The notes below the pieces were generated by a model. That model did not search any database, was not told the DNA's origin, and saw only the letters and a list, made by a program, of their open reading frames with translations. A stretch of 64,000 nucleotides of DNA from Planctomycetaceae bacterium (GTDB lineage Bacteria > Planctomycetota > Planctomycetia > Planctomycetales > Planctomycetaceae), in the NCBI GenBank assembly GCA_021732415.1, contig JAKFVC010000031.1:1-64000 (forward strand), read 5' to 3'. Every line of letters starts with the position of its first letter. Positions within the stretch are counted from its first letter, which is position 1. Both the position numbers and the translations under genes were made by a program. Below, piece by piece: positions 7,125 through 59,269 of the stretch.

Positions 7125-7530
7125 CGCAGTGAACTCCCTCAATGAATCAAGATCGGCAGGAATGATGTCGCGGGCAGGCAGGCAATTTTTGAAGGCAATT
7201 CTTCGCGGCAAATTCGAACACGCAGCCACAATGTCGCAGACACCGTGATCGGTTTCTCGTTACAACTCATCTATTTTGACAGATGCCAAATGCAATTGCC
7301 ATACATAAATAGAGATAGATGCTTCCGAAAGAGGATTTCTATCCCGGAGAACGCGTAGCAGCAATCGCAGAGCGAATGGTGGCGAAAAATCCGAATGTCT
7401 AATGACTAGTGTCTAAAAGGATCATCCTTGTCAGCGCAAAACATGGCGATGTTCAACTTTAAGTTTGGCTGAATCCCTTCCCCCCACGCTTGCGTCCTTT
7501 TAGTCATTAGGATTTAGTCATTAGTCATTT
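7125..7530. other. Gene-free interval with an inverted repeat
   Basis: No credible gene in 406 bp. It holds the upstream region of the 4638-7124 gene and an inverted repeat with arms at about 7394-7421 and 7495-7529, built from the words aatgtctaatgactag and ctaaaagga. The same words recur at 59134-59269. The missing FlhB C-terminal domain is not encoded here in any frame. Confidence 0.7.
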
Positions 7531-8277
7531 CTAAGGCTTCGCCCGACTTTGGAGAGTCAGGCTACGACGACTCCCGCCTTCGTTTCGTGATTCCTCACGC
7601 AACTCGGCAAGCGACATCTTCAACGATTGCTCGAACTTCCAGAATTGATATCCGTAGTCACACAGACCGAACATCAAAAACGCCGCAGCCAGCAGCCAGG
7701 CGAGCATCACGAAACTATTGCCGATAATCTGAGCCCCGGTCGCCAGGTCATATTCGGGTAAAGCTGACAGACGTCCCAAATTCGACCAGAGGTACCAGCC
7801 CCCCAGGCCAACCATCGCGACGTATTTGACAAATCCCCATACCGCCTGGCTGACGTTTTCGATCCGCCACAGTTTGGAAAATCCGTGCGTCAAACTCAGT
7901 CTCGACAGGTCAGGCAACACATCATCCATTTGAAATCGAAAACCAACCTGCAGAAAGTGCCCCGCGAGACAGCACCCCCACAAGCAACCACAGCCCCCCA
8001 AACACGCGAAACCCAACCGAGTCACGGCATCCCACGTCATCGATACCACAGAGTTAGATGTCAATTCGGTCAGCCACGGTCTCTGCAATGAATCGGTGAG
8101 ATATTGAGTCAGCTCCAGAACCAGGCTGCCGCCGAAAAACTGCAACGCCAACGCGACTCCCAGCAAGCGGCACGCGGTACTCAAATCAGCACTGCGCGGG
8201 CCGAGGCCGTCCTCGCGCGCTTGACGGCGGCGACGTTCGGTGGGTTGCTCGGTCTTGTCGTCGACTTCGAGTGCCAT
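7531..8277 (-). CDS. flhB: FlhB-like flagellar export protein, truncated before the switch domain
   Basis: 248 residues, against about 350-380 for FlhB. It starts with the typical DDKTEQPTERRRRQAREDG and has the four-segment membrane domain (to about residue 215). The linker is still recognisable (YQFWKFEQSLKMSLAELREE) up to residue 236, where family members continue EGDP and then the NPTH autocleavage domain. Here the sequence becomes GGSRRSLTLQSRAKP and stops, so NPTH is absent. FlhB normally switches export substrate from rod/hook to filament through that domain. The last codons are a family-3 repeat (7540-7566), so repeat-associated loss of the 3' end is inferred. It is the final gene of the fliN-O-P-Q-R-flhB operon, with 9 bp between it and fliR. 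A natural short paralogue is the alternative. Confidence 0.8.
   Translation of the reverse strand: MALEVDDKTEQPTERRRRQAREDGLGPRSADLSTACRLLGVALALQFFGGSLVLELTQYLTDSLQRPWLTELTSNSVVSMTWDAVTRLGFACLGGCGCLWGCCLAGHFLQVGFRFQMDDVLPDLSRLSLTHGFSKLWRIENVSQAVWGFVKYVAMVGLGGWYLWSNLGRLSALPEYDLATGAQIIGNSFVMLAWLLAAAFLMFGLCDYGYQFWKFEQSLKMSLAELREESRNEGGSRRSLTLQSRAKP
7540..7566 (-). repeat. Family-3 REP-like element forming the flhB 3' end
   Basis: Minus-strand GTAG foot followed by the stem cctgactctccaaagtcggg. It matches the copies at 2377-2402 and, more distantly, 27023-27051 and 27128-27155. It encodes residues SLTLQSRA of the truncated FlhB. Confidence 0.8.
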
Positions 8278-8286
8278 AACAAAAAT

Positions 8287-9165
8287 CTAACGATGAATGG
8301 CTTGGAGAACGGACTGCTGGGTCACAGGAATCAGTTCCATCAAACGCTCGGTGGCGCCGGTCAGTGCCAACGTCAGCACCCCCAGAGCCACCGCGATCTT
8401 AAGAACATTTCCTGTCGCAACACCCTGAAACTGCGGAGCCACGCTGCTCGCATGAGCCACGATCAAACCTACCAGGATTTGCACGGCGATCACCGGGGCC
8501 GATAACTGTAGTGCCAGACTCAGCGATTGCTGAATCATCTGCATGGCGATGGGCATCATCTCCAACGGAGCGCTCCCGCAACCTGGCGGAAATGCGCGAA
8601 AAGTTTCCAGCAAAGTCGACATGAGAAGCAGATGCCCACCGAGCAAAACGAGTAGCAAATTCCCCATCCAGAAGAGCAATTCCCCCATCACCGAGCCGCC
8701 GTCTTCGCCATCCAGCCCGGACGATGATGCCAGCTCCAAGCCCGTCTGTTGATCAATCAATTGCCCCGCCATCCGGAACCCCTGCAGGATCAGGTTGGCG
8801 CCAATTCCGAGTAAGAATCCCAGACCGAGTTCACCGACCGCAAGCCCCAAGAAAACGCCGACGTTTCTTGGTGTGTCGCCCCCGTGGCGAACGCTGCCAG
8901 CGTCCGCGTTCCCGTCTTCAAACTGAGTCATCACAAATTGCCGTCCATCAGGCTGCAAAGCCTTCCGCGCCGACAACGAAACATTCGGAGTGATGATCCC
9001 CGCCAACACAACCAACAACAGCGCCCGCAGTTGCCAGGGAATGGTCGAGGGATTACAGCCCGGCACCGTCACCAGCAATCCCAGCAGCCGGCAACCCACT
9101 AGCAGATGGTCCGCCAGGAGTGCAATCAACGTCAGTCCATAGGCCACCAGGGATGCATCCGCCAT
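8287..9165 (-). CDS. fliR: Flagellar export gate protein FliR
   Basis: 292 residues from ATG 9165 (300 if an ATG at 9189 is used). FliR is an integral membrane component of the type III flagellar export gate together with FliP and FliQ. The sequence shows several hydrophobic helices, including ALLLVVLAGIITPNVSL, LGLGFLLGIGANLILQGFRMAGQLIDQQTG (the family signature) and PVIAVQILVGLIVAHASSVAPQF. At about residues 86-96 a family-1 palindrome (8881-8910) is read in frame as NADAGSVRHGG in the loop before the central helices. The start at 9165 has GGAAATTTCG before it and is mildly preferred. It lies 66 bp after fliQ and 9 bp before flhB. Confidence 0.9.
   Translation of the reverse strand: MADASLVAYGLTLIALLADHLLVGCRLLGLLVTVPGCNPSTIPWQLRALLLVVLAGIITPNVSLSARKALQPDGRQFVMTQFEDGNADAGSVRHGGDTPRNVGVFLGLAVGELGLGFLLGIGANLILQGFRMAGQLIDQQTGLELASSSGLDGEDGGSVMGELLFWMGNLLLVLLGGHLLLMSTLLETFRAFPPGCGSAPLEMMPIAMQMIQQSLSLALQLSAPVIAVQILVGLIVAHASSVAPQFQGVATGNVLKIAVALGVLTLALTGATERLMELIPVTQQSVLQAIHR
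8881..8910. repeat. Family-1 palindrome inside fliR
   Basis: Core cgaacgctgccagcgtccg at 8888-8906 with the cccgtgg flank, one mismatch from a perfect palindrome. It is translated within FliR as ADAGSVRHG. Confidence 0.85.
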
Positions 9166-9231
9166 CGAAATTTCCAAAGCGGACGGCATGAGTCACTCGC
9201 AACGGACCGGGCACGGTTTGATCGTCAACAA

Positions 9232-9498
9232 TTAGAGATTGGAGGGGATACTGCGAAACAGTTCCGAGGAATAATCCACGAGCATCTCCAGCCCCCAAGG
9301 CAATGTCAGCAACGCAATCAGCATCACAATCACCAGCCGCGGCACGAAGCTGAGGGTCTGATCATGCATCTGAGTCGCAGTCTGCAGAGCACTCGTCACC
9401 AACCCGATCACCAACGCCACAACCAACACCGGCGCCGCCAGGATCAAGGCGATCAGCAACGCGTGTCGAGCGAGTTCAATGGCCTGATCGGCAGTCAT
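9232..9498 (-). CDS. fliQ: Flagellar export gate protein FliQ
   Basis: 88 residues, the normal FliQ length. It has two long transmembrane helices: ALLIALILAAPVLVVALVIG (about 13-32) and LVIVMLIALLTLPWGLEML (about 55-73). Between them is the conserved segment SALQTATQMHDQTLSFVPR. FliQ packs around FliP in the export gate of the basal body. It lies 78 bp after fliP and 66 bp before fliR on the same strand, in the usual P-Q-R order. No anomaly seen. Confidence 0.95.
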   Translation of the reverse strand: MTADQAIELARHALLIALILAAPVLVVALVIGLVTSALQTATQMHDQTLSFVPRLVIVMLIALLTLPWGLEMLVDYSSELFRSIPSNL

Positions 9499-9576: not shown

Positions 9577-10590
9577 TCACGTCACCGCACGCACGCTTTC
9601 TATCAACATCCCAACGGTCAACGTCCAACCGTCAATCAACACGAACAACAACAACTTAAACGGCAACGAAATCTGCGTCGGTGGCAACATCGACAGCCCC
9701 ATGCTCATCAACACGGCTGCCACCACGAGGTCGATAATCAGAAACGGCAAATAAATCTGAAAGCCGATCAAGAACGCAGTCTTCAATTCGCTCAGCAAAT
9801 ACGCCGGCAGTAGCACCGTTAGCGAGACATCATCGTAGGTCTCCGGTTCCTGCCAGTTTTCGGCATCGATCGAACCCTTGGCTGGTCGCTGGTATTCGAC
9901 GAACATCCACACGGCATCCGGGTTATGAGCCTTCTCAATCTGCTGGCTCATAAAGCGACGCAACGGCCGAACCGTGTTTTCAAACACCACCGGGAAAGAC
10001 GGACGCGACGCACCAGACGGAGGATCGGTATACGGTCGAATTCCCTGTTGATAGCTCTCATTCCAAACGGGTGCCATGACGAGCAACGTCAGAAACAAAC
10101 TCAATCCCATCAACACCTGATTCGGCGGCAGGTTGGGAGTCCCCAGTGCCTGTCGCAACAGGCTGAGCACCACAATAAACCGCACAAAACAAGTCGACAT
10201 CATCAAGATCGCCGGCGCCAGACTCAGCACGGTCACAGCCAGCCAGACATTGATGCTTGAGGACAACCCCTGGGGTGATACAAACTGGTCGACATTGAGG
10301 TTCGGCATCCCCTGGATCAACTGCCCAGGCAGTCCGCCGCCACCCGCGGGCGCGCGCTGTGGAGCCGCCTCGTCTTCACGACCTGCGGGGGGATTGCGAC
10401 GCGGTTCGATATTGAAATCAGGCCGCAAATCACTGGCATTGGCTTTGTTGGGACTATTCTGAAATCGCGTCTTTTGAGTCCGCGGGGCGCCCGAGGGACC
10501 TTGCGCCGTTGCAGACCGAGGCCACCAAAGTTGACCGCAGACGACGATCAGCATGACCGCCACCGTGAGAGCACGCCATCGGTGAGTCAT
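9577..10590 (-). CDS. fliP: Flagellar export gate protein FliP
   Basis: 337 residues from ATG 10590. A signal peptide ([20 protein letters not shown] then SATAQ) is followed by a low-complexity segment (about 36-105). The FliP domain follows: [40 protein letters not shown] and [19 protein letters not shown] are family signatures. FliP forms the core of the export gate. The frame is open upstream to 10872, overlapping the fliO stop. That extension is entirely translated hairpin repeat (10647-10844) and precedes the signal peptide, so the shorter start is preferred. An extended protein translated from the overlap with fliO cannot be excluded. Confidence 0.92.
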
Positions 10591-10646
10591 CACCGCTACG
10601 ATTTGAGCGAACCGAGCGAAAACGAGAGAGGCCGATCGCGAAATTA

Positions 10647-10844
10647 GCCCCGGACGGGGCGACCGCATAGAGCCTGGGGCGTTAGCCCCAGGTGTCAGTC
10701 GCCTAAAGAAAGCAAAGCCCCGGAGGGGCGACCGAAGTTCGTCGCTTCCCAATTGGGGTCGCCCCTCTGGGGCTAGTTGGTCCGTTTTTGGACGAATACC
10801 TAGGGCTATCGCCCCAGGCTTTATGCGGTCGCCCCTCCCGGGGC
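10647..10844. repeat. Nested inverted repeat of six GC hairpins between fliO and fliP
   Basis: Small palindromes lie at 10647-10660, 10673-10692, 10717-10729, 10761-10773, 10799-10818 and 10831-10844. The block 10647-10692 is matched in inverted form by 10799-10844 with few mismatches, so the whole region can fold as one large structure. Confidence 0.85.
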
Positions 10845-10864
10845 TAACATTCTGGTTACCTTTT

Positions 10865-11437
10865 TTAGACACGATTCGCTCCTCCTACGTTTGAGTTCGT
10901 AGAAGGTCGCAACATCTTCCCGATATGGGGTCCACTCAACGGCGTACCAGAGGCCGTCGAGGGCAGGCATTGCCCGGTGATTTGTTCGACCTCATGAGGA
11001 TCCGTGATTTCAGCCAGGGTCGTCAGGCCGTGCTGAGCCGAATTGGCAACCACGAGGATTTTCGAGCCACAGCGGATCAACTGCAGGCTATTTCGCGAAT
11101 CCAGATAGCGTTTGCCGAGCACTTGAACGACATCCGCCGGCAGCATGCCTGGCAGTCGCGCTCCGTGTCGGGAAAACAAATACCCTGCGACAACAATGAT
11201 TCCCAGCACCAGAAACAGACTGCCGGTCGTCGTCATCCAGCCCGACGAGGCTTTTGACGGATTGCCTGCCGAACTGCGGGAAGCATTTGTGGAGCGACCT
11301 AGTTTGAGCGGAGTATCGGCAGAAGCAATCGGAGCGGCATCCTGGGCGCGGGGAATCAGCAACGGCTCCTGCCCCCAGGCCAATCCCGGCAGCAACAACC
11401 AAGCCCACACCAGCCAGCTTCCCTGCCAGCGCGACAC
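10865..11437 (-). CDS. fliO: Flagellar biosynthesis protein FliO
   Basis: 190 residues. It has an N-terminal signal-like segment ([16 protein letters not shown]), a Ser/Ala-rich linker, one transmembrane helix near 71-88 ([18 protein letters not shown]), and a small cytoplasmic domain with [24 protein letters not shown], typical of FliO. FliO assists assembly of the FliP ring. It lies between fliN (30 bp upstream) and fliP in the canonical order. FliO is poorly conserved, so the call depends partly on synteny. Confidence 0.85.
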
Positions 11438-11466: not shown

Positions 11467-11745
11467 TTACGCTTGCTGCGTTGCCGAACCATAGAGCTCG
11501 GTAATGCGCACCCCTAATTGACCATCGATCAACAACACTTCTCCCCGGCCAACCAATTTCGAACCGCTATAAATCGCGACAGGATCGTCCGAGAATTCTT
11601 CGAGAGCAATCAACGCACCCGGCTGGAGTTGCTCAGCGACCGCCCGGTCCAGAGCAGTCTGGCCCAGTTCGATCGTCAGCTGCGCGGCTGCCGAATCCGT
11701 AGTGTGCTCCACATCGTCGTGAACCGGAGTCTCTGAACTCGACAT
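11467..11745 (-). CDS. fliN: Flagellar motor switch protein FliN (SpoA domain)
   Basis: 92 residues. The C-terminal about 70 residues form a SpoA/FliN domain: LTIELGQTALDRAVAEQLQPG, VAIYSGSKLVGRGEVLLIDGQ and the final GVRITELYG are the conserved core. FliN forms part of the cytoplasmic C-ring that sets rotation and docks export substrates. It is the first gene of the minus-strand fliN-O-P-Q-R-flhB operon; upstream is about 350 bp of non-coding repeat sequence that must contain the promoter. Only a short acidic leader precedes the domain, as in minimal FliN proteins. Confidence 0.92.
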   Translation of the reverse strand: MSSSETPVHDDVEHTTDSAAAQLTIELGQTALDRAVAEQLQPGALIALEEFSDDPVAIYSGSKLVGRGEVLLIDGQLGVRITELYGSATQQA

Positions 11746-45097: not shown

Positions 45098-45171
45098 GGA
45101 CGCATGGCTCAGTTGGTTAGAGTACTACCTTGACATGGTAGGGGTCGCAGGTTCGAATCCTGCTGCGTCCA
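45098..45171 (+). tRNA. tRNA-Val (anticodon GAC)
   Basis: 74 nt. The cloverleaf is complete: acceptor GGACGCA/TGCGTCC, D-arm GCTC...GAGT (one G-T pair), anticodon arm CTACC-TTGACAT-GGTAG with anticodon GAC, T-arm GCAGG-TTCGAAT-CCTGC, discriminator A. CCA is not encoded. The 3' half is duplicated at 47853-47898, showing that this gene served as an integration site. Confidence 0.96.
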
Positions 45172-45174
45172 CTG
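45129..45174 (+). repeat. Left attachment site (tRNA-Val 3' end)
   Basis: 46 bp from the anticodon loop through three bases beyond the tRNA. It matches 47853-47898 at 45 of 46 positions. Confidence 0.88.
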
Positions 45175-47852: not shown

Positions 47853-47898
47853 CTTGACATGGTAGTGGTCGCAGGTTCGAATCCTGCTGCGTCCACTG
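47853..47898 (+). repeat. Right attachment site (tRNA-Val remnant)
   Basis: 46-bp copy of the tRNA 3' half with one mismatch (T for G in the variable loop). The acceptor 5' half and D-arm are missing, so it is not a functional tRNA. Confidence 0.88.
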
Positions 47899-59133: not shown

Positions 59134-59269
59134 AATGACTAATGTCTAATGACTAATGTCTAAAAGGATCGAAGACGACGGAAACATCGAGGGAGGGTTC
59201 GTAAATCTCTCAGGACCGGACAGTAACCGCAGTTCCTCCAACCCATTTAGACATTAGTCATTAGACATT
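59134..59269. repeat. Inverted repeat of taatgac/gtctaa words between divergent genes
   Basis: A tandem array aatgactaatgtctaatgac (59134-59153) continues to 59165, and an inverted copy is at 59246-59269. The same words occur at 7394-7529. Here it lies between the divergent lysC and parA genes, so it is not a terminator. Confidence 0.8.

Follow-up and report, generated by a model that had tools for sequence, protein, structure and literature searches.

A planctomycete FlhB without the C-terminal autocleavage domain is shared across genera and probably belongs to a reduced, flagellum-derived exporter

Introduction

The C-terminal domain of FlhB is the dock for early substrates, the site of NPTH autocleavage and the target of FliK, and it is counted among the core components of type III export gates. 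In the Planctomycetaceae genome considered here, the flhB gene stops before this domain and takes its last codons from a repeat. Is this a gene broken by the repeat, is the missing domain provided from elsewhere, or is the short protein a gate subunit in its own right? An earlier note on the window (the whole 64,000-nucleotide stretch of DNA that was analysed, contig C26:1-64000) had proposed either that a repeat-associated truncation created a minimal FlhB or that the C-terminal domain is supplied separately. We find that the truncation is real, shared across genera, under selection and not made by the repeat.

Results

The flhB gene and the repeats at its 3′ end are laid out as follows.

7531-8277, minus strand: flhB without the C-terminal autocleavage domain, 248 aa (open reading frame list, Pfam, AlphaFold model)
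7538-7565, plus strand: 28-nt interspersed repeat, into which flhB reads for its last codons; also present at this site in the sister species G072
7394-7530, no strand assigned: palindromic repeat directly behind the flhB stop, with a second copy at 59141-59269

The Pfam profile Bac_export_2 aligns to FlhB residues 6-236 only, corresponding to positions 1-225 of its 335, and the TIGR00328 flhB score of 120.7 bits lies under the equivalog cut-off of 349. The four-helix membrane domain that wraps FliPQR, a feature of flagellar FlhB, is present according to both Pfam and the AlphaFold model; the model has a pLDDT of 85.5 and resembles the FlhB chain of the FliPQR-FlhB complex (6s3l_K) with a TM-score of 0.80 by target. 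The cytoplasmic C-terminal domain with the NPTH site is absent, and comparison with the FlhB of G033 places the stop ~20 residues ahead of the autocleavage Asn. No NPTH-type domain lies 3′ of flhB, where the palindromic repeat is followed by a convergent unrelated ORF. The earlier note was thus right that the protein is normal to about residue 236 and that the NPTH domain is missing and not encoded nearby. Its statement that FlhB ends exactly at the linker holds for a truncation near the linker but not for the word exactly, as ~27 residues persist past the conserved linker Met221. Asp207 of FlhB is invariant in 20 truncated FlhBs. Because the gene lies 7.5 kb in from the contig end, the truncation is not a contig-end effect.

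As the note had also said, the last residues of FlhB are encoded by a repeat: the final 11 (RSLTLQSRAKP) are read from the 28-nt element and its flanking bases. The element occurs in 4 copies in the window at ≤3 mismatches, compared with 0 expected in shuffles, and a further copy lies between fliH and fliI on contig C301 of the same genome (G000). In G072, whose FlhB is 89% identical to the window FlhB over 110 codons, the element occupies the same flhB site and supplies a TAG stop after a longer tail. The window flhB has a 40-nt deletion relative to G072, and it is because this deletion shifts the frame into the element that 11 codons are read from it. Judged from these sequences, the repeat and the deletion altered only the non-conserved last residues of FlhB, and the repeat is a bystander. 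The repeat-derived codons are what speaks for the element as the cause of C-domain loss in this strain, but G030, of the same genus, has no element at the flhB end and a different tail and likewise lacks the domain, and in G072 the element merely gives the stop. Every same-genus relative and ~30 family genomes are without the C-domain and carry unrelated tails. Since relatives without the domain end differently, the repeat is not the cause of the truncation; the sister-species alignment rules it out, and we leave this explanation next to no probability.

The palindromic repeat at 7394-7530 has no counterpart in the alignment of G072 and G030. Both of its copies, at 7394-7530 and 59141-59269, have TGTCTAATGACTA-type ends. 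Elsewhere in the window, the 3′ end of a tRNA-Val gene (45098-45172) is repeated, with 45 of 46 bases, 2.7 kb downstream at 47853-47898; the two are likely an attachment-site pair bounding a small inserted element.

We then considered whether the C-domain could come from a second gene. Genome-wide statements here rest on profile searches. The genome (a 350-contig draft, 98.3% complete) contains one flhB; the second copy that the note had suggested looking for was not found, nor was the combination of a full-length flhB at this locus in related strains and a second intact copy in this genome. A profile built from the FlhB C-domain alone hits all of the searched genomes that have an intact full-length flhB (E ≤ 6e-31) as well as two genomes of genus g4, in which the domain is degenerate (E ≤ 2e-16). 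One row of the underlying alignment (A1) reads VVDADV for QVQDADV; the profile still recovers all positive controls. In the present genome its best match has an E of 0.31 and falls inside pyruvate kinase, so that the C-domain was not found here by this profile; the same holds for most other C-domain-less genomes searched. The proposal of a separately supplied domain is therefore not borne out, and FhlB, the stand-alone FlhB C-domain that would supply the missing part, was not found in this genome.

The search for stand-alone or embedded C-domains did return matches that look genuine in two members of the same genus, G030 and G093, where an FlhB-C-like domain with a conserved Asn-Pro sits in unrelated frames of ~953-954 and 936 aa (L034 3794-6655, plus strand; L035 5776-8586, minus strand). 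By eye, these large frames show a membrane segment and a coiled coil, and L035 also a GYF domain. They favour provision of the C-domain in trans by another protein; this type of domain was, however, not found in the window genome or in G072, and the large frames are distant from flagellar and export genes. We regard supply in trans as extremely unlikely.

The genes beside flhB in the window encode further parts of an export apparatus.

8287-9189, minus strand: fliR, export gate (PF01311)
9232-9498, minus strand: fliQ, export gate (PF01313; TIGR01402 above the flagellar cut-off)
9577-10872, minus strand: fliP, export gate (PF00813; TIGR01103 above the flagellar cut-off)
10865-11437, minus strand: fliO (PF04347)
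11467-11745, minus strand: fliN-like C-ring protein, 92 aa (PF01052)

The N-terminal part of the fliP ORF overlaps an inverted repeat (10644-10847), and the true fliP start is probably downstream of the listed GTG. Other contigs of the genome encode FliF fused to the middle and C-terminal domains of FliG, FliH and FliI (C301), FlhA, FlhF, an FlhG-like MinD-type ATPase and a FliA/WhiG sigma factor (sigma-28) (C57), and a FliM-like protein (C6). The genes for FlhF and the FlhG-like ATPase directly follow flhA and are conserved alongside it. FlhA, FliP and FliQ score above the flagellar equivalog cut-offs. They do not score as parts of an injectisome (Sct-type) gate: FlhA reaches 570.6 bits against an SctV cut-off of 692, and FliP and FliQ fall under the SctR and SctS cut-offs. 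All 19 reduced and all 8 flagellar FlhAs compared have the equivalent of FlhA Asp208, the proton residue. Within the genus, dN/dS is 0.03-0.22 for flhB, fliR, fliP, fliFG, flhA and fliI, and these genes are under purifying selection. The term minimal FlhB from the note is apt: the membrane part is intact, purifying selection acts on the protein, and it belongs to a conserved system. The truncated flhB looks like an intact membrane-gate subunit of that system rather than a gene broken by a repeat.

Loss of the FlhB C-domain goes together with loss of the axial genes and the motor. Rod and hook proteins (Flg_bb_rod) gave 0 matches in this genome versus 4-5 in each of three flagellated controls, and flagellin and MotB, the profile used as the stator test, gave 0 matches here and were positive in the controls. 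Rod matches are absent in 21 of 22 genomes where only a truncated FlhB was found and present in all seven genomes with dual FlhBs and all three flagellated controls. The exception is a draft genome, G083, which has rod genes and in which only a truncated FlhB was found. No MotB passes the cut-off in any of the 14 genomes tested that have a truncated FlhB only, and flagellin passes it in one (G010, which has flagellins and no rods and is a draft, 79% complete). Genus g4, in which no rods were found in two genomes, keeps the C-domain, but its NPTH reads NGMA (G003).

How widespread is this arrangement? An FlhB that ends before the C-domain occurs in about 31 of 120 sampled genomes of the family, 7 of which also carry a full copy; these dual-FlhB genomes possess two FlhAs. 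Truncated FlhBs are also present in families f5, f12, f14, f15 and f20 of the class. In family f2 (16 genomes sampled), most FlhBs have a C-domain region in which the NP site is missing (L141-L145, L148-L155), and some are truncated. States in the sampled genomes thus run from a full domain through one that lacks the NP site to complete absence, and in some genomes a reduced system stands beside an intact one. Every reduced genome searched has FliF; FlhA was found in all of them except G093 and FliM/N domains in all except G037, and most have a FliI that exceeds its cut-off. Within the gene-neighbourhood set, 13 to 26 genomes have FliO, FliP, FliQ, FliR, FliH, FlhF, the FlhG-like ATPase and sigma-28. 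Conserved neighbours were also screened as substrate candidates, and none was found beyond known flagellar base genes and a few unrelated genes. In G030, fliF has a sigma-54 activator nearby. The extent of FliG retained varies by lineage, with FliF and FliG separate, fused or partly lost. FliF-FliG fusions are seen in many reduced systems (L086 4304-6622, minus strand; L042, L092, L093, L104).

In Salmonella, late chaperones bind FlhA at a dimple that includes D456, F459 and T490 (PMC8166844). This dock is kept in the genus of the window, as D452, F455 and T486. The Phe459 equivalent is lost in 16 of 16 other reduced FlhAs examined, and the Thr is lost in 14 (L057 8904-11021, plus strand; L060-L076), and these 16 systems keep the FlhA proton residue despite whole or partial loss of the dock. 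When Salmonella lacks its rod-hook proteins, Fluke and the FlhB C-terminal cytoplasmic domain (FlhB-CCD), export is locked late and excludes early substrates, and FliK becomes dispensable; the late-mode effect there also required loss of Fluke and raised expression (PMC13344023). Because the Phe459 equivalent is gone in 16 reduced systems, a simple model of export locked in late mode fails across the group. With the dock kept in the present genus, a late-mode exporter is by this analogy a fair inference here, and elsewhere the choice of cargo must differ.

To ask how often the reduction occurred, we compared trees of the two gate proteins; these took in no Myxococcales sequences. A single reduced clade is compatible with the tree of FlhB membrane domains (p-AU 0.892). 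The tree of FlhA leans against one clade (3 changes, p-AU 0.064): it places the reduced proteins among those of native flagellated planctomycetes, and the FlhA of this genome groups with native planctomycete flagellar FlhA. From the FlhA tree and the differing FliF and FliG states of the lineages, we lean towards repeated reduction rather than a single origin. The flagellar FlhAs of the dual genomes form a separate, fully supported clade (L166-L170 vs L061-L064, L068). Their position apart from native planctomycete FlhA suggests that the working flagellum of these genomes comes from another lineage, as if acquired.

Discussion

We consider it probable that the window system is a reduced, flagellum-derived, proton-driven type III exporter without an axial structure, in which FlhB serves as an intact membrane-gate subunit. 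Rod, hook, filament and motor would have been lost and the export core and C-ring retained, and export would be proton-driven and have one substrate mode. The switch domain of FlhB would be dispensable because without rod, hook and filament there is nothing to switch between. By analogy with the Salmonella flhB-deltaCCD mutant, early (rod/hook-type) substrates would not be accepted; the cargo would be whatever docks on FlhA, probably exported into the periplasm. In the other genera examined, where the FlhA dock is wholly or partly lost, cargo would be recognised in another way. More tentatively, as a possibility that we would not yet bet on, the Planctomycetia may have repeatedly made their native flagellum into a proton-driven exporter, stripping it of the known flagellar substrate docks, namely the C-domain of FlhB and, for most lineages, also the dimple of FlhA, while keeping the gate and the proton residue.

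Other readings of the retained genes can be set against this one. The base could be a polar scaffold or landmark: positioned at a pole by FlhF and the FlhG-like ATPase, FliF-FliG and the gate would organise budding, a stalk or surface structures without moving any protein. The position of the two genes directly after flhA, conserved with it, is consistent with such a role, as is the loss of both substrate docks in most reduced systems. An invariant FlhA proton residue, together with FliI, FliH, all gate subunits and purifying selection on those tested, exceeds what a scaffold needs, and we consider this reading unlikely. A working flagellum that has diverged, with rod, hook and filament proteins that the profiles miss and an FlhB that functions without its C-domain, would account for the retention of C-ring proteins, FlhF and sigma-28, and related genera have been reported to be motile (PMC10923784). 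However, when applied to those native flagellated planctomycetes that were tested, which have FlhAs placed among the reduced ones, the same profiles pick up rods, flagellin and MotB, which they do not in the present genome, and Salmonella FlhB without its C-domain cannot export hook protein; a hidden flagellum therefore seems quite improbable. That the system is a decaying, non-functional remnant is in our judgement less probable still: the axial half is gone and many lineages are losing the docks on FlhB and FlhA, but the dN/dS range is that of constrained genes (0.03-0.22), the same core recurs across many genera, and truncated FlhBs are found in several families of the class.

The reduced exporter that we favour has partial counterparts among known systems. 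With the flagellar type III export apparatus (FlhA/FlhB/FliPQR plus FliHI) it shares all gate subunits, the FlhB membrane fold and FlhA Asp208; it differs in that no FlhB C-domain, rod, flagellin or MotB was found and in that FliF is fused to the middle and C-terminal domains of FliG. The NF-T3SS of the Myxococcales, which lacks axial genes and MotAB and is thought to be neither flagellum nor injectisome, likewise has a T3SS core without flagellar axial genes (PMC3459982), MotB alone of the motor having been tested here. Unlike that system, the present one keeps parts of FliG fused to FliF, has components of flagellar type and has an FlhB without its C-domain. The flagellum basal bodies of Buchnera also retain parts without flagellin and motor and are presumed to be repurposed, although Buchnera keeps the rod and part of the hook and is host-bound (PMC8109811). 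Flagellar FliI, FlhA and FliF are kept in Chlamydia, again without flagellin and motor and presumed repurposed, but there the parts are few and the organism is host-bound (PMC2830194). The rodless flk flhB-deltaCCD mutant of Salmonella resembles the window system: in both, FlhB does not reach beyond the autocleavage site, and rod and hook are missing. Late substrates pass in this mutant and early ones do not, as would by analogy hold for the window system; the mutant is a laboratory construct, while the window system lacks these parts through natural loss and is a long-standing state.

In the literature, most subscription journals aside, we found no description of a reduced planctomycete T3SS or of any naturally occurring group of C-domain-less FlhBs. 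Natural machines appear to have been without this domain for a long time, in step with the loss of rod, hook and filament, which is allowed by the removal-of-inhibitor model of the specificity switch. The planctomycete series is a natural test of what a minimal gate needs and possibly holds repeated, independent instances of a flagellum turning into a secretion machine. If the reading of repeated reduction is true, the planctomycete exporter would be a type III-derived machine that selects its cargo by a new means.
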